DNA of 64,000 nucleotides from Bradyrhizobium diazoefficiens. GTDB taxonomy: Bacteria; Pseudomonadota; Alphaproteobacteria; Rhizobiales; Xanthobacteraceae. The stretch spans positions 7,654,501 through 7,718,500 of the forward strand of contig NZ_CP067102.1 in NCBI RefSeq assembly GCF_016616885.1, given 5' to 3'. This document shows positions 1 through 6,824 of this stretch, piece by piece. A program made the translations under genes and the position numbers. The notes under the pieces were generated by a model that was not told the DNA's origin, did not search any database, and worked only from the letters and a program-made list of their open reading frames with translations. Position 1 is the stretch's first letter; each line of letters begins with the position of its first letter.

Positions 1-288
1 CTGGTAGAGGGTCTCGAACTGCTCAGCAGTGATCGACTGGTTGCCGGCCCACCACATCTTCTTGTCGGTGGTGGCGTCACGCACCGTGAACTTGTCCTTC
101 GGGCTACGGCCGGTGAACTCGCCGGTATCGGCGCAGAGCGAACCGTTGGCGGAGAGCACCGCCTCGCCCGCGGAGAGCGAGTACTGATACAGTTGCGGCG
201 CGCCGAAGTTCCAGTGAACCTGCTTGAGATTCTTTAAGCCGAATTTGTCGGCGCCGAAGGCACCGTTGCGCACGCCCGTCTCTTGCAC
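1..288 (-). CDS. pckA: Phosphoenolpyruvate carboxykinase (ATP), N-terminal part
   Basis: This is the first 96 codons of an ATP-type PEP carboxykinase, which decarboxylates and phosphorylates oxaloacetate to PEP in gluconeogenesis. The rest lies beyond the window edge. Visible family signatures are 'WNFGAPQLY', 'GEFTGRSPKDKF' and 'WWAGNQ'. The start is a GTG (codon at 288-286) with a GAGGA ribosome-binding site at 296-300. The gene lies on the same strand as, and downstream of, the CHAT protease gene, with about 280 bp between them that carry nothing else I can identify. In rhizobia pckA commonly neighbours chvI/chvG, which fits here. The identification is firm; activity cannot be judged from a fragment. 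Confidence 0.93.
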   Translation of the reverse strand, partial: MQETGVRNGAFGADKFGLKNLKQVHWNFGAPQLYQYSLSAGEAVLSANGSLCADTGEFTGRSPKDKFTVRDATTDKKMWWAGNQSITAEQFETLYQ

Positions 289-570: not shown

Positions 571-3162
571 CTATCGTACCGCACCTTCGCCGATCAGCGC
601 GAATGGCCCCCACATCGCGGGGTAGGCATTGCGGGACGACGAGGTATCGTCGACGTACGTTACCATCGCGCGCCGCAGAGCTTCGGCTCTGCCGATTTTT
701 GGTTCGTTTTTGAGCAGATCGAAGGTCGAAGTGGTCAAGCGGGTGGCAGCCTCCGAATCCACGGCCCAATGCGAAACCAAGAGCGCGCGCGCACCGGCAT
801 AGAAGAAAGCGCGCGCCAGTCCCGACAGGGCCTCGGCGCCCGGCTTGTCGCCGGCGATCGTGTTGCAGGCCGACAGCACGACCCAATCGGCATTGAGCTT
901 GAGCTGGGCGACTTCGCTCGCCGTGAGCAGGCCATCATCGAGCTCCGAGGGCTGGCCGGGAATCGAGAGCGCAAGCGATGGCTCGCCCACGCCTTTGATG
1001 TCGCCGGCGACGAGGCCGTGGGTCGCAAAGTAGATGATGCTGTATTGAGCAAGCGGTGCACGCTTGAGCGTCGCTTCGCTGGCGTCGCGGCCGAGATGAA
1101 TGTCGGCATCAGTCGCACCGACATCTTTCGCCACGGCATTCAGCTCGTCTGCTGTATCGGGCAGTTGCGGCAGCGCCTGCGCAAGCCGCGCGCGATCGAC
1201 GCCGGCGCCGCGCCAGAAATCGGTATAGGCTGACGTCACGATGCTGCGCGCGGCAACCGTGCCGCTTGCAGCGCGGCGATCGGCGGGACCTTCCTGCGCC
1301 GGGTTGAATACGGGATCGCCAAAGCCCGTCATCGGCTTGACGCCCTGATCCTTGCGCGCAAAGGCACGCAGCGATTTCAGGCTGACCACCGATGGCAGCA
1401 CCGAGACAGCTTGACGCCGCAGCAACCAGGCAGCGCTGCGATAACCTTCGAGCGTCTCGGGGATCGCAGCTTGCGGTGCCTCCGTGACGAGCAGATGAAA
1501 CGGCAGCGCGGTAAGCGCGCCCGACGGCACGGTGAGCAGGCTGCGCTTGTCCCTGGTCAGCGCCTCGACCGGGCCGAGCAGCGTGACATAGAGCTCGTTG
1601 GCGAGCGCGAGGTCGAACAAGCCTGATTTGCCGGAGCCATCGCGTGCCTTGCCGACATCGAGACCTCGGCGGAAAGCCGTGACCTTCTGCGCCAGCGCAT
1701 CTGCGCCAAGCGGAATTTCCTTCCAGTCGGCACTCTCCCGCGTGATGGCAATGACATAGCTGCGCTTGTCGACGACGGAATAGAGCACCATCGCTTCGTC
1801 GGCCGACAGCAGGGGCTGGACGTCCTTGACCGTCAGAGGCAGCGGGTTGGAGAGCGAGGCGTAATCGGGGAATTCAATGGCGAGCGTCTTCTGCAGGCCG
1901 GCGCGCTCGCTTGCGATGACCGCGATCCGCCCGCGGCTGCGCTGCTCGGAGGCGACGTCGCGCTGCGCCGACGGCTTCGATACGGCCGTGATGATCGCCT
2001 TGTCGAGCGATTCAGATTCGGCCGCGAGATCCTGGTCCTTGCGCACCAGCTCGGCGAGACGGTCGTTGCCGGCGGCGAGCCGCACCGCGAGCTTGTTGAC
2101 GGCCGATGCGGCGGAGGATTGCGTGCCGCGCTGGATCGCGGCGAGCGCCTCGTCCAACGCCTTGTCATGCGGCAGCAGCGATTGCTGGCGCGCCGCGAAC
2201 AGGATCGGCAGCACCACGCGCAACTGGGCGCGGTCGTTCGCAATCGTTTTTTCCGCGAGCGGCAACGCGTCCGCAGTTCGCCCGGACACAAGGAGGAAAT
2301 AAGCGAGATTGCTGATGGATGTCGCAACATCCGGATGATCCGGCCCAAGCGCACGCTCGCGAATGGCGAGCGCGCGGCGATACAGCGGTTCGGCATCGGC
2401 ATAGCGCTGCTGGTGCTCGTAGAGCCCGGCGAGATTGTTGAGGGACCGCGCGACGTCGGGATGATCGGGCCCCAGCGCTTTTTCGCGGATCGCGAGCGAG
2501 CGCTTGATCGGCGCTTCGGCATCCGCATCGCGACCGAGGTCGCGATCAAGCTGGCCGAGATTGTTCAGGAGCGTTGCGACCGCCGGATGCTCGGGGCCGC
2601 CGACCTTCTGGTAGATCGCGAGCGCCCGCTGGAACAGCGGCTCGGCATCTGCAAAGTGCTCCTGCTTCACATAGAGCGTACCGAGATTGTTGAGGGACTG
2701 GCCGACGTCGGGATGCTCGCGCGACAGCGCCTTCTCGCGGATAGCCAGCGCCCGCTTGAATAACGGTTCGGCATCAGCGAGGCGGCCTTGCCGCTGATCG
2801 AGAGCGGCGAGATTGTTCAGCACGGGCGCGATCTCGACACTGTCGAGGCCGGTCCCCTTCTCCATCAAAGCGATGGCGCGCTTGTAGATCGGCTCCGCCT
2901 GATCGTCATGCCCCTGATCGGCGTAGATCTGCGCGAGGTTGTTGAGTGCAGCGGCGAGATCGCGGTTGTTGCTGGTCTTCTCGAGCGAGACCACCATGGC
3001 CTGCGCCAGCGGCAGCGCCTCGGAGTATTTCCCGGCACTTCTCAGCACATTAATCCGCGCGCTCTGCGCGGCAAGACCGCCCGCCTGGGCAAAGCTGGGC
3101 GTGGCAAGCGATGCCGTGATCGCGAGCCCCAGGCCCGCAACCAATGCCAAACGACGCGTCAT
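571..3162 (-). CDS. Exported TPR-CHAT domain protease
   Basis: An 863-residue protein. Residues 1-26 form a signal peptide ending near 'TPSFAQA'. About six 42-residue kinesin-light-chain-type TPR repeats follow (roughly residues 40-300; typical unit 'HPDVARSLNNLAGLY...RALAIRE'), then a helical linker and a C-terminal CHAT caspase-like domain (about 550-863). The expected His-Cys dyad is present: His about 715 in 'YFATHG' and Cys about 766 in 'LSACNT'. CHAT domains are cysteine peptidases related to separase and caspases. The start at 3162 was chosen because it opens a clean signal peptide; an upstream in-frame ATG at 3195 would add 11 residues. It lies 79 bp downstream of the HugZ-like gene on the same strand. 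The substrate is unknown. Export to the periplasm is inferred from the signal peptide. Confidence 0.88.
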   Translation of the reverse strand: MTRRLALVAGLGLAITASLATPSFAQAGGLAAQSARINVLRSAGKYSEALPLAQAMVVSLEKTSNNRDLAAALNNLAQIYADQGHDDQAEPIYKRAIALMEKGTGLDSVEIAPVLNNLAALDQRQGRLADAEPLFKRALAIREKALSREHPDVGQSLNNLGTLYVKQEHFADAEPLFQRALAIYQKVGGPEHPAVATLLNNLGQLDRDLGRDADAEAPIKRSLAIREKALGPDHPDVARSLNNLAGLYEHQQRYADAEPLYRRALAIRERALGPDHPDVATSISNLAYFLLVSGRTADALPLAEKTIANDRAQLRVVLPILFAARQQSLLPHDKALDEALAAIQRGTQSSAASAVNKLAVRLAAGNDRLAELVRKDQDLAAESESLDKAIITAVSKPSAQRDVASEQRSRGRIAVIASERAGLQKTLAIEFPDYASLSNPLPLTVKDVQPLLSADEAMVLYSVVDKRSYVIAITRESADWKEIPLGADALAQKVTAFRRGLDVGKARDGSGKSGLFDLALANELYVTLLGPVEALTRDKRSLLTVPSGALTALPFHLLVTEAPQAAIPETLEGYRSAAWLLRRQAVSVLPSVVSLKSLRAFARKDQGVKPMTGFGDPVFNPAQEGPADRRAASGTVAARSIVTSAYTDFWRGAGVDRARLAQALPQLPDTADELNAVAKDVGATDADIHLGRDASEATLKRAPLAQYSIIYFATHGLVAGDIKGVGEPSLALSIPGQPSELDDGLLTASEVAQLKLNADWVVLSACNTIAGDKPGAEALSGLARAFFYAGARALLVSHWAVDSEAATRLTTSTFDLLKNEPKIGRAEALRRAMVTYVDDTSSSRNAYPAMWGPFALIGEGAVR

Positions 3163-3241
3163 GAGCCCTCTCGCTGCCAATCTCAGACCGATCACGATCT
3201 TGGGTCGCAGCGATGTGAGGCGACGTTCAAACTATTGCGGG

Positions 3242-3976
3242 TTAGTCCGTCTTCGCACGCGCTTCTCCCACCAGACGGACCAGCATCTTGCGCAGTGCCG
3301 TGCCATCAGCGACCCGCTCCGGAAAATCCAGCCGCAGCGTGGTCTGGCCGTCCTGCATGTCGATGCCTTCGGGGTCGCAGCCGGTGCAGCGCCAATCGCC
3401 CGCGGGCGCACCAAGCAGCCTTGTTGCGTACAGGCCCATGGCGGCACGGTGGTCGGCATTCATGTGCTCGACGGCGCCTTCCTCCGCCGCCAGCAGGTCC
3501 TCGGTGCCGGCGAGGTCCGTGAGGAACTGTTCCGGCTTGAGATCGACGATCCGGCCAAAACCTGCGACCAGATGGGTTCCCGCGGGTCGGATCCGGAAGA
3601 ACGCAAAATCCTTAAATGAGACAAAGGCTTCCGCCGCCGGATGGGCATTGAGATACCGCCGCTGAAGCAGATCCCTCTCATCCTCGGCCTGTTCGGCCCG
3701 GCCGGACAGCATGATCCGAGCGCCTTCCAGCGGATCGCCGGCGGCGCGCTCGTCCAGCATCAGGGAGACCCGGCTGTCTGCAAGGATGTTCCTGGTATGA
3801 ACCGCCAACCGGGAGATCAGCAGGATCGGGGAGCCATCGAGGTGACTGGCCAGATTGACCAGGGAACAGTAGGGATCGCCGCTGCCCGGCATGAGCGTCG
3901 CGAGCGCGCCCTGCCGCGACCGCCTGAGCAGCGATTTGGCGAGCTTTCCGGGGTCGAAGTCGGAGGTCGGTTCCAT
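3242..3976 (-). CDS. HugZ-like pyridoxamine-phosphate-oxidase-fold haem utilisation protein
   Basis: A 244-residue protein with a split-barrel flavin-binding fold (PNPOx-like, about residues 15-150; motifs 'YCSLVNLASHLDGSPILLIS', 'HTRNI' and 'RVSLML') followed by a DUF2470/HugZ C-terminal domain (about 165-240; 'HMNADH', 'GCDPEGIDM', 'LDFP'). This architecture is that of HugZ-type haem oxygenases and related haem-iron proteins. No signal peptide, so cytoplasmic. The start at 3976 (MEPTSDF...) is preferred over 4012 because the extra 12 residues are proline-rich and not family-like. It is divergent from chvI. No haem transporter is next to it, so a haem role rests on family membership alone. 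Confidence 0.8.
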   Translation of the reverse strand: MEPTSDFDPGKLAKSLLRRSRQGALATLMPGSGDPYCSLVNLASHLDGSPILLISRLAVHTRNILADSRVSLMLDERAAGDPLEGARIMLSGRAEQAEDERDLLQRRYLNAHPAAEAFVSFKDFAFFRIRPAGTHLVAGFGRIVDLKPEQFLTDLAGTEDLLAAEEGAVEHMNADHRAAMGLYATRLLGAPAGDWRCTGCDPEGIDMQDGQTTLRLDFPERVADGTALRKMLVRLVGEARAKTD

Positions 3977-4216
3977 TGGCTTTCTCGGCCCAGGTGGTTG
4001 CAAGGCGGGCATTTTTTCGGGTAAACGGGGGTCCGGTTATGGGTCGACATGCGGCGAATCTGCCGTGTTTCGTGGAACTTGGTCACACTTCAGCCCAGCT
4101 TGCATTGCTCGGTGACAAAGTTCGAACGCCGAATTCGGCACCCATGTATGCGGCGCATCACTGGATTGCTCGCCGTTTAAGCCACGACCCAAACGGAAAG
4201 CAGAAAGCACAGGCTC

Positions 4217-4918
4217 ATGCCCACAATCGCTTTGGTCGACGACGACCGCAACATTCTCACATCCGTCTCGATCGCGCTGGAAGCCGAAGGCTACCGCATC
4301 ATGACCTACACCGACGGCGCCTCCGCGCTTGACGGTTTCCGCACCACCCAGCCCGATCTCGCCATCCTCGATATCAAGATGCCGCGCATGGACGGCATGG
4401 AGACGCTGCGCCGTCTCAGGCAGAAGTCCGACTTGCCGGTGATCTTCCTGACCTCCAAGGACGAGGAGATCGACGAGCTGTTCGGTCTCAAGATGGGCGC
4501 CGATGATTTCATCCGTAAACCGTTCTCGCAGCGCCTGCTGGTCGAACGCGTCAAGGCGGTGCTGCGTCGCTCGGCGCCGAAGGATCCGACCGTCGCGCCG
4601 AAGGAGAACGATGCCAAGGCGCTCGACCGCGGCCTGCTGCGCATGGATCCGGAACGGCATACCTGCACCTGGAAGAACGAGCCGGTGACGCTGACGGTCA
4701 CCGAATTCCTGATCCTCCAGGCGCTGGCAACACGGCCCGGCGTGGTCAAGAGCCGCAATGCGCTGATGGATGCCGCCTATGACGATCAGGTCTATGTCGA
4801 CGACCGCACCATCGACAGCCACATCAAGCGGCTGCGCAAGAAGTTCAAGGTGGTCGACAACGATTTCGAGATGATCGAGACGCTCTACGGCGTCGGCTAC
4901 CGCTTCAAGGAAGCCTGA
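4217..4918 (+). CDS. chvI: Two-component response regulator ChvI (OmpR family)
   Basis: A 233-residue OmpR/PhoB-type regulator. The receiver domain occupies residues 1-120 with acidic pocket 'VDDD' (8-10), phospho-acceptor Asp52 ('[13 protein letters not shown]'), 'LTSKDE' and the conserved Lys in 'IRKPFS'. The winged-helix domain is about 135-230 ('[15 protein letters not shown]', '[10 protein letters not shown]'). The first strand '[14 protein letters not shown]' is typical of rhizobial ChvI. The partner kinase chvG follows 115 bp downstream. In Rhizobiales this system controls acid/envelope stress responses, exopolysaccharide and symbiosis or virulence genes. Linkage to hprK and PTS genes is the conserved alphaproteobacterial order and supports the symbol. 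Confidence 0.96.
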
Positions 4919-4952
4919 GGCGCAGGCGCCTTCACAACAGATGAGAGCTGCG

Positions 4953-4978
4953 CCGGTTCTGATTCCATCGGAACCGGG
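4953..4978. repeat. Palindromic element between chvI and chvG
   Basis: An imperfect hairpin ('ccggttctgatt' / 'atcggaaccgg') lies in the 115-bp gap after chvI. It resembles the first half of the dispersed repeat at 54991-55094 and so is probably a relict of that family. It could form an RNA hairpin between chvI and chvG that lowers expression of the kinase relative to the regulator; that role is inference. Confidence 0.5.
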
Positions 4979-5033
4979 CATGCTCTAGGATGCGGGGACC
5001 GTCGCACGAGCTGTCCTAACGCGGGCGTAAGCA

Positions 5034-6824
5034 TTGCTTGACCGAACGCAGCCTGATCCGAGTTCGAACGCCGAGGACGTTACCGCCCACGGCGCCTCGG
5101 AGCATGAGGACAAGCCGATCACGCGAGGCTGGGGGCCGCTGAACTGGCTCAAGCGCGCCGGCCAGTTCTTCTTCGCGTTGTCCTTCTCGAGCCTGACCCG
5201 CCGCATCGTCTCGCTCAACCTCGCAGGCCTTGTCGCGCTGGTCGCGAGCATCCTCTATCTGTCGCAGTTCCGCGCCGGCCTGATCGACGCACGCGCGCAG
5301 AGCCTGCTGGTGCAGGCCGAAATCATCGCCGGCGCCATCGGCGCCTCGGCGACGGTGCAGACCAACGCGATCACCGTCGATCCCGAACGGCTGCTCGACC
5401 TGAAACTGGGTGAGAGCTATGGCGGGCCCGACGATTCGCTGGATTTTCCGATCAACCCCGAGCGCGTGGCGCCGGTGTTGCGCACGCTGATCTCGCCGAC
5501 CAAGACCCGCGCGCGGATTTTCGATCCCAACGGTTCGGTGTTGCTCGACAGCCGTGACCTCGACGTCCTCCGGGCCTTTCCGCTGCCGCCACCGTCCGAG
5601 AAACCCGGGCTGGTCGAGCGCGCCATGGTCGCGACCCGGACTTGGCTGAACCGCGGCGACCTGCCGCTCTATCGCGAACTCGGACGCGAGAACGGCAATG
5701 GCTATGTCGAAGTCGCCGATGCGCTCCAGGGCCAGAAGCGCTCGATGGTGCGGGTCAATGCGCGCGGCGAGGTGATTGTCTCGGTCGCGGTCCCCGTGCA
5801 GCGCGCACGCGCCATCCGCGGCGCGCTGATGCTGTCGACGCAGGGCGACGAAATCGATCAGATGGTCACCGCCGAGCGCCTCGCGATCCTGAAAGTCGGC
5901 GGCGTCGCTGCCGCGGTCATGATCATGCTGTCGCTGCTGCTCGCGAGCACGATCGCAGGCCCCGTGCGCCGGCTCGCCGACAGCGCCGAGCGGGTCCGCC
6001 GCCGCATCAAGACCCGCGTCGAGATTCCCGACTTCACCCGCCGCCGCGACGAGATCGGCCATCTCTCCGGCGCGCTACGCGATATGACCAGCGCGCTCTA
6101 CAAGCGGATCGAGGCGATCGAGATGTTCGCCGCCGACGTCGCCCACGAGCTGAAGAACCCGCTGACCTCGCTGCGCTCCGCGGTCGAGACGATGCCGCTG
6201 GCGCGCAACGAGAACAGCCGCGCCCGCCTGCTCGAGGTGATCGAGCACGACGTCAAGCGGCTGGACCGCCTGATCTCGGACATCTCCGATGCGAGCCGGC
6301 TCGATGCCGAATTGCAGCGGCAGGATGCGATCCCGGTCGATCTGAGGCGGCTCCTGGGCACGCTCGTCGCGGTCGCCAATGAAACCAAGCTCGGTCACGA
6401 CGTCGCCGTCGAGGCACGCTTCGAGGGCCGCAGCCCGACCGACATTTTCGCGGTCACGGGCCATGATTCGCGGCTCGGGCAGGTGGTTTCCAACCTGCTC
6501 TCCAACGCGCAGTCCTTCTCGGAAGCCGGCAGCAAGGTGCGCCTGACCTGCCGCCGCGTGCGCGGCGAGATCGAGATCGTGGTCGACGACGACGGCCCCG
6601 GCATCCGCGACGACGCGCTGGAGCGCATCTTCGAGCGCTTCTACACCGACCGGCCGCATCAGGGTTTTGGCCAGAATTCCGGCCTCGGCCTGTCGATCTC
6701 CAAGCAGATCGTCGATGCCCATGGCGGACGCATCTGGGCGGAGAACCGCGCCGGCCCCGCTGATGAAGACGGGGCGCCGACGGTTGCCGGCGCACGCTTC
6801 GTGGTGAGGCTGCCGGCGCTATGA
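5034..6824 (+). CDS. chvG: Sensor histidine kinase ChvG
   Basis: A 596-residue membrane kinase. One transmembrane segment lies near residues 57-80 and a second near 285-310, enclosing a periplasmic sensor region of about 200 residues. HAMP follows (about 310-365), then the dimerisation domain with phospho-accepting His about 371 ('VAHELKNPLTSLR') and an ATPase domain with 'NLLSNA', 'DDGPGI', 'FERFYTDRP' and 'GLGLSISKQI'. The start is TTG: an in-frame TAA lies at 5028-5030, only two codons upstream, and there is no nearby ATG, so TTG at 5034 is the earliest possible start. Its stop overlaps the hprK start (ATGA, 6821-6824), so the two are translationally coupled. It phosphorylates ChvI. Confidence 0.95.
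   Translation: MLDRTQPDPSSNAEDVTAHGASEHEDKPITRGWGPLNWLKRAGQFFFALSFSSLTRRIVSLNLAGLVALVASILYLSQFRAGLIDARAQSLLVQAEIIAGAIGASATVQTNAITVDPERLLDLKLGESYGGPDDSLDFPINPERVAPVLRTLISPTKTRARIFDPNGSVLLDSRDLDVLRAFPLPPPSEKPGLVERAMVATRTWLNRGDLPLYRELGRENGNGYVEVADALQGQKRSMVRVNARGEVIVSVAVPVQRARAIRGALMLSTQGDEIDQMVTAERLAILKVGGVAAAVMIMLSLLLASTIAGPVRRLADSAERVRRRIKTRVEIPDFTRRRDEIGHLSGALRDMTSALYKRIEAIEMFAADVAHELKNPLTSLRSAVETMPLARNENSRARLLEVIEHDVKRLDRLISDISDASRLDAELQRQDAIPVDLRRLLGTLVAVANETKLGHDVAVEARFEGRSPTDIFAVTGHDSRLGQVVSNLLSNAQSFSEAGSKVRLTCRRVRGEIEIVVDDDGPGIRDDALERIFERFYTDRPHQGFGQNSGLGLSISKQIVDAHGGRIWAENRAGPADEDGAPTVAGARFVVRLPAL

Follow-up and report, generated by a model that had tools for sequence, protein, structure and literature searches.

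A gene on the reverse strand of the window (the whole 64,000-nucleotide stretch analysed here, part of a genome assembled as one 8.09 Mb contig) encodes an 863-aa TPR-CHAT protein that is constrained but dispensable and is probably a periplasmic enzyme. Sequence comparison brings out its architecture, the conservation of its His-Cys dyad, its single cysteine, the selective constraint on it and the repeated decay of the gene. Taking these together, we consider it likely that the protein is an extracytoplasmic, most likely soluble periplasmic, CHAT-type cysteine endopeptidase that is gated or aimed by its TPRs and has a niche-dependent role.

In the mechanism we propose, the signal peptide would direct export by the Sec pathway and be cut after A25. 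The TPR array would then bind a specific extracytoplasmic protein or peptide, binding would position or switch the CHAT domain, and one or a few substrates would be cleaved through the H715/C766 dyad. With its nucleophile as the lone cysteine, the protein would avoid tying up that thiol in a disulfide once in the oxidising periplasm. The job would depend on niche, being under strong purifying selection in many lineages and discarded in others.

Gene and domain architecture

The start codon is the ATG at 3162; beginning instead at the in-frame GTG at 3195 would lengthen the protein by 11 aa. The sequence ahead of the start, GCGAGAGGGCTC-ATG, contains a plausible, GAGAGG-like ribosome-binding site, and no sigma-70-type promoter was found between positions 200 and 4300 of the window. 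The protein runs from a signal peptide through six 42-aa TPRs and a linker to the CHAT domain:

571..3162, reverse strand: predicted exported TPR-CHAT gene, 863 aa (ORF, Pfam, synteny)
3088..3162, reverse strand: signal peptide, residues 1-25, predicted cleavage between SFA and QA (sequence, home-made test, dN/dS)
2215..2955, reverse strand: six kinesin-light-chain-type TPR units, residues ~70-316 (TPR_10/TPR_12, PDB sequence matches, register)
1609..2202, reverse strand: linker with conserved LVR..QDL motif, residues ~321-518 (conservation, dN/dS)
586..1608, reverse strand: CHAT domain, residues 519-859 (PF12770, median dN/dS)
1018..1020, reverse strand: predicted catalytic His715 codon (FATHG), invariant in aligned sequences
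865..867, reverse strand: predicted catalytic Cys766 codon (LSACNT), the protein's only Cys, invariant in aligned sequences

The ORF, Pfam matches and motifs confirm what the preliminary description had observed, namely a signal peptide, six TPR units and a CHAT domain with its His-Cys dyad. Its interpretation fared unevenly: the export signal and the intact dyad are supported, but not that export is surprising, nor the idea that the TPRs could recognise a foreign or surface protein (see below). The named close homologues are from Bradyrhizobium. Our homologue set comprises the 118 members of 840-890 aa among the best 120 of 8000 scored matches, and all matches of this length that were listed are at least 84% identical to the 863-aa protein.

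Locus and history of the gene

The gene is flanked by the following features:

1..288, reverse strand: N-terminal part of pckA, downstream neighbour (tblastn anchor)
3242..4012, reverse strand: PNPOx/DUF2470 ('HugZ-like') gene, directly upstream on the same strand (Pfam)
4217..6824, forward strand: chvI and chvG, divergent two-component pair (ORFs, conserved position)

We take the divergent pair to be chvI and chvG, and the downstream neighbour, which was translated and used as a tblastn anchor, to be pckA. The neighbours expected earlier, pckA and a HugZ-like gene, were found on either side. The upstream gene scores 29.9 bits against a HugZ cut-off of 240 (TIGR04109) and 31.3 against a HutZ cut-off of 225, far below both, and is only distantly HugZ-like (PNPOx plus DUF2470). 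The order of chvI and chvG is that given in section 13 of PMC4550343.

The HugZ-like gene is present in 115 of 117 Bradyrhizobium genomes (no match in G091 and G101); it lies at most 3 kb from chvG in 111 of them and on a separate contig in the other four. The order chvG/chvI-HugZ-like-[CHAT]-pckA, with a whole CHAT gene or a piece of one, occurs in 75/117. In 72/117 genomes most of the CHAT query is matched at 67% identity or more, with an open frame of at least 840 aa in 64, and the distance from the HugZ-like gene to the CHAT gene falls within 1059-1125 bases in 63 of 76 entries. A strict operon with the HugZ-like gene was rejected, since four genomes with a long CHAT frame (G016, G055, G064 and G092) carry extra intergenic DNA.

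Forty sites without a usable gene were examined, 39 from the 42 genomes lacking CHAT beside the HugZ-like gene plus the remnant in G013. Both flanks are visible at 38 sites: at 20, CHAT remnants survive between the HugZ-like gene and pckA in the expected orientation, and the other 18 show none; several remnants are short (26-50 aa). As controls in the same gaps, no match came from any of 100 shuffled queries or from the query reversed, and the real query matched nothing on the wrong strand. One genome, G090, has its CHAT gene on another contig. The HugZ tree has 83 rows (42 lost, 41 intact); it was built from one short gene in quick mode, and three split-match genes that are possibly assembly errors count as lost on it. 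There the presence/loss label needs 15 changes, at least 10 of them on well-supported branches. Shuffled labels need 27.8, so the label is also clustered on this tree. Given remnants at the same spot and these changes on the tree, the simplest reading is that the TPR-CHAT gene has been lost repeatedly from an ancestral locus in Bradyrhizobium. Such natural losses within one genus make the role testable by comparing related species.

A close relative outside Bradyrhizobium (L073) has no HugZ-like, pckA or chvI/chvG match in 14 kb, so outside the genus this close relative is located elsewhere. In a record titled Frankia sp. RB7 (L092, JAUEPE010000018.1), the gene is 90% identical and falls among Bradyrhizobium in the tree of HugZ-like genes; this record is probably mislabelled or contaminated.

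The TPR array, selective constraint and possible roles

Pfam matches to the repeats are strong (TPR_10, E 1.9e-67; TPR_12, E 4.1e-65), with 42-residue units in register from residues 70, 112, 154, 196, 238 and 280, and the nearest solved sequences to this part are kinesin light chains (E 1.4e-46). The concave face shows no excess conservation (0.70 vs 0.69 at other positions). In the linker, R374, Q377, D378 and L379 are invariant in 38 sequences, and the Q and D are invariant in 30 CHAT regions too. When 18 orthologues were compared with the window's own gene, median dN/dS fell from 0.31 in the signal peptide (15 usable orthologues) to 0.20 in the TPRs, 0.136 in the linker and 0.106 in the CHAT domain. 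We infer that the TPR array may gate the specificity of the CHAT domain. The earlier idea that it could recognise a surface or foreign protein found no support: no substrate gene was found, PADLOC returned only a generic TPR model, and the groove has no excess of conservation.

This bears on a role in envelope conflict or surveillance, in which the TPRs would sense an invading or damaging extracytoplasmic protein (from phage, bacteriocin, competitor or host peptide) and the CHAT domain would cleave an envelope target, making the protein an outside counterpart of Craspase. Repeated loss, with remnants at 20 of 38 readable sites and 10 to 15 changes on the tree, together with strong constraint, fits a costly, situation-dependent gene, and the CRISPR TPR-CHAT protein is a triggered protease (PMC9729208). 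Against this stand the generic PADLOC result, a chromosomal locus fixed between housekeeping genes and TPRs that show no fast-evolving recognition surface, and we regard the role as distinctly improbable. A broader proposal is also unlikely: that these proteins form a hitherto undescribed extracytoplasmic branch of triggered caspase/separase-like proteases, reaching from Alphaproteobacteria to Nitrospiria and Anaerolineae, whose Bradyrhizobium members would carry a single catalytic Cys suited to the oxidising periplasm and serve as an envelope surveillance switch, directed at invaders or envelope damage, with a cost that led to repeated loss.

The neighbourhood suggests another role, that of a periplasmic input to ExoR-ChvG-ChvI, in which the protease would trim ExoR or the sensor domain of ChvG and so tune acid- or host-responsive expression. 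A single gene separates the CHAT gene from chvI-chvG. The source genome also encodes an ExoR-like protein with Sel1 repeats and a signal peptide (L088:1653-2468, at about 4.24 Mb), between genes that we take to be ilvD and a convergent xthA; this protein is likely to be ExoR. Its setting resembles that of ExoR near COG0708 (PMC4550343, section 13). In S. meliloti, proteolysis can regulate ExoR, whose degradation is enhanced by JspA, a predicted periplasmic protease (PMC10659215). The link is tempting because the partner of ChvG-ChvI is regulated in this way there and a candidate ExoR is present here. The candidate ExoR is, however, found in 114/117 genomes (109/109 of the near-complete ones) and chvG in 116/117, whereas the CHAT gene is patchy; the close relative outside the genus is located elsewhere, and adjacency may be chance. 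We judge such an input very unlikely. An obligate partnership was rejected outright, with the ExoR candidate in 114/117 genomes and CHAT beside the HugZ-like gene in 75/117.

The CHAT domain and the lone cysteine

The 863-aa protein is a member of the CHAT family. The profile search proposed in the preliminary description matched PF12770 over residues 519-859 (E 9.5e-52), and features of the family are present: a score of 176.7 bits, above the curated cut-off of 24, a His-Cys dyad and an association with TPRs. Both CHAT motifs, 'IYFATHGLVA' and 'WVVLSACNTI', were found. Across 38 aligned sequences, with identity down to 34%, neither H715 nor C766 varies; in the alignment of 30 CHAT regions their invariance is partly by construction, as those loci were preselected for both motifs. 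Because earlier alignments used motif-preselected loci, the dyad was checked again by alignment alone, and H and C were found in 58/58 loci from the whole-region search (L006-L063) and 80/80 peptide-pattern loci (L089-L168), one of the patterns itself containing the His motif. Among five CHAT places in the source genome, two align and carry both residues, and three are too distant. The earlier claim of an intact His-Cys dyad is upheld by these counts, and catalysis by H715/C766 would be consistent with them. A PDB search with a profile of the 30 CHAT regions returned no protease, its 10 matches being no better than E 0.038 and mostly keratins and lamins.

The same residues bear on another possibility: many repeat proteins serve as adaptors, and this one could be an exported scaffold of TPRs whose CHAT domain is non-catalytic. 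Both dyad residues are retained in all 58 whole-region loci and in the 38 aligned sequences, where identity goes down to 34%. With C766 as the sole cysteine and CHAT as the most constrained part of the protein, a scaffold is highly improbable.

In the catalytic reading, a lone cysteine may spare the protein wrong disulfides in the periplasm. Among the matches listed, 111 of 118 homologues have a single Cys beyond residue 30 and seven have two. From the 35 predicted genes of the window, 6.0 Cys would be expected (Poisson P of one or none, 0.017). Genes with a signal-peptide call are, however, Cys-poor (0.30% vs 0.82%). On that basis about 2.5 Cys would be expected here, which makes a single Cys less remarkable for an exported protein. 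In more distant relatives the number ranges from 1 to 6 Cys (among the best 80 of 583 loci), and the second TPR-CHAT ORF of the source genome, L080 (1163 aa), has 6; the lone Cys is thus no rule of the whole branch.

The signal peptide and predicted export

The N-terminus, MTRRLALVAGLGLAITASLATPSFA followed by QAGG, can be divided into n-, h- and c-regions, with an S-F-A site before Q. We applied a home-made signal-peptide test that looks for a basic n-region, an uncharged hydrophobic window and a small-x-small site. Among the matches listed, 114/118 homologues are positive and 112/118 have an [AGSVT]-x-A-[QTE] cleavage site in place, and the base rate is 6 positives in the 35 predicted genes of the window. 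A Tat-like RR.[FLIVM][FLIVM] motif was found in only 8/118 of these homologues.

To represent the wider family, we took the best 80 of 583 loci from a family-profile search; four are cut by contig ends and five are broken or short. All 71 intact N-termini are positive (67 plus 4 that were missed by an ORF finder requiring both active-site motifs and were tested separately), under a lenient test that allows free choice of start codon within the first 260 codons and in which 59 of 2234 internal decoy starts are also positive. Of the five broken or short frames left out, three are positive at a meaningless internal place and two are negative. The positive relatives come from Alpha- and Betaproteobacteria, Nitrospiria and Anaerolineae, plus two gammaproteobacterial loci (L166 and L167). 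These two, together with L107, L111 and L113, have a lipobox-like Cys at the N-terminus (LGGC, VAGC and similar), and some members of the exported CHAT branch may accordingly be lipoproteins rather than soluble proteins.

With 114/118 homologues and 71/71 intact N-termini positive, export appears to be the rule in this CHAT subfamily and no oddity; since the search profile was built mostly from exported proteins, the result describes the subfamily and not all CHAT proteins. That export is surprising is not supported for this branch, and export peculiar to this gene was rejected on the same 71 relatives among the best 80 of 583.

The signal peptide also holds against the competing view of it as a TPR helix. 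Residues 1-26 diverge fastest, yet charge, hydrophobic core and cleavage site are kept, which is how a cleaved signal peptide is expected to look, and the canonical TPR array begins only at residue 70. Export of the 863-aa protein is well supported by sequence, as judged with the home-made test, and we infer that it would take place in the cell. The mature part is probably soluble, since it lacks both another strongly hydrophobic stretch and an N-terminal Cys to which a lipid could be attached. That the N-terminus is a TPR or amphipathic helix of a cytoplasmic protein would suit its modest hydrophobic core, whose best 19-mer averages 1.65 compared with 1.47 for the best in the mature protein. 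This is exceedingly improbable, given that 112 to 114 of 118 homologues retain a basic n-region, an uncharged core and a small-x-Ala site even though this part diverges fastest.

Comparison with known systems

Csx29, the Craspase TPR-CHAT protein of type III-E CRISPR, is cytoplasmic and not known to carry an export signal, and the signal-peptide statistics set the 863-aa protein apart from it on this point. Both proteins join a TPR array to a CHAT domain whose dyad is His-Cys (H585/C627 in Csx29), but Csx29 is bound to a CRISPR effector and triggered by target RNA (PMC9729208), whereas the protein described here has an export signal and kinesin-light-chain-type TPRs. No Cas7-11 or type III-E locus was found among the immediate neighbours (pckA, HugZ-like, chvI and chvG), and the protein does not appear Csx29-like in location or context. 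Eukaryotic separase has a similar fold and a His-Cys dyad (PMC9729208); it is, however, a securin-regulated chromosome protease, and no separase matched in the PDB search with the profile of 30 CHAT regions.

HetF of Anabaena, the founding CHAT protein, also combines CHAT and TPR; it is a divisome component with one predicted transmembrane segment, sits at the cell periphery, and has no export signal mentioned in the part of the source covered (PMC8406250). Its CHAT domain is N-terminal (aa 1-555), with the transmembrane segment and TPRs in addition (PMC8406250), unlike the signal peptide-TPR-CHAT order found here. A CHAT protein thought to be transmembrane is mentioned in PMC11854122. The C14 metacaspases (orthocaspases) are likewise caspase-like, with N-terminal helices that are possibly signal peptides (PMC3501461); the term 'CHAT' does not occur in that article on prokaryotic caspase homologues.

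In the portions of the open-licence PMC papers covered (PMC10907252, PMC8406250, PMC9729208, PMC11854122, PMC9895726, PMC6722718 and PMC8055020), we found no account of an exported TPR-CHAT branch, and the protein may represent an exported variant without a description in that literature. The most closely studied CHAT protease in the literature covered works inside a CRISPR complex, and HetF belongs to the division machinery. A large exported branch, if real, would bring regulated proteolysis of the caspase-like kind into the bacterial envelope, and a genus of soil and root nodules would provide a model for it that is non-essential and amenable to genetics.

Other caspase-like loci

L080, the second TPR-CHAT ORF of the source genome, is signal-peptide-negative from its first start codon; a later, likely internal start gives an export-like N-terminus, judged by eye only. 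Two further CHAT ORFs, both signal-peptide-negative, lie close together at about 5.22 Mb (L081:5301-11738); they have 8 and 10 Cys, one carries DUF7379 and DUF7363, and an unmatched 539-aa ORF lies between them. At about 6.36 Mb (L082:5373-6845) the same genome has a signal-peptide-positive C14 metacaspase, which differs from the 863-aa protein in that its best match is C14, not CHAT, and it has no TPR match; export signals thus occur on more than one of the genome's caspase-like proteins. Finally, genome G294 of the same family has three adjacent same-strand genes (L079:3307-9781) encoding a C14 caspase-domain protein (781 aa), a signal-peptide-positive CHAT protein of 566 aa that lacks TPRs, and a third protein, of 810 aa, that matches nothing in Pfam; together they may be an envelope cluster of caspase-like kind.
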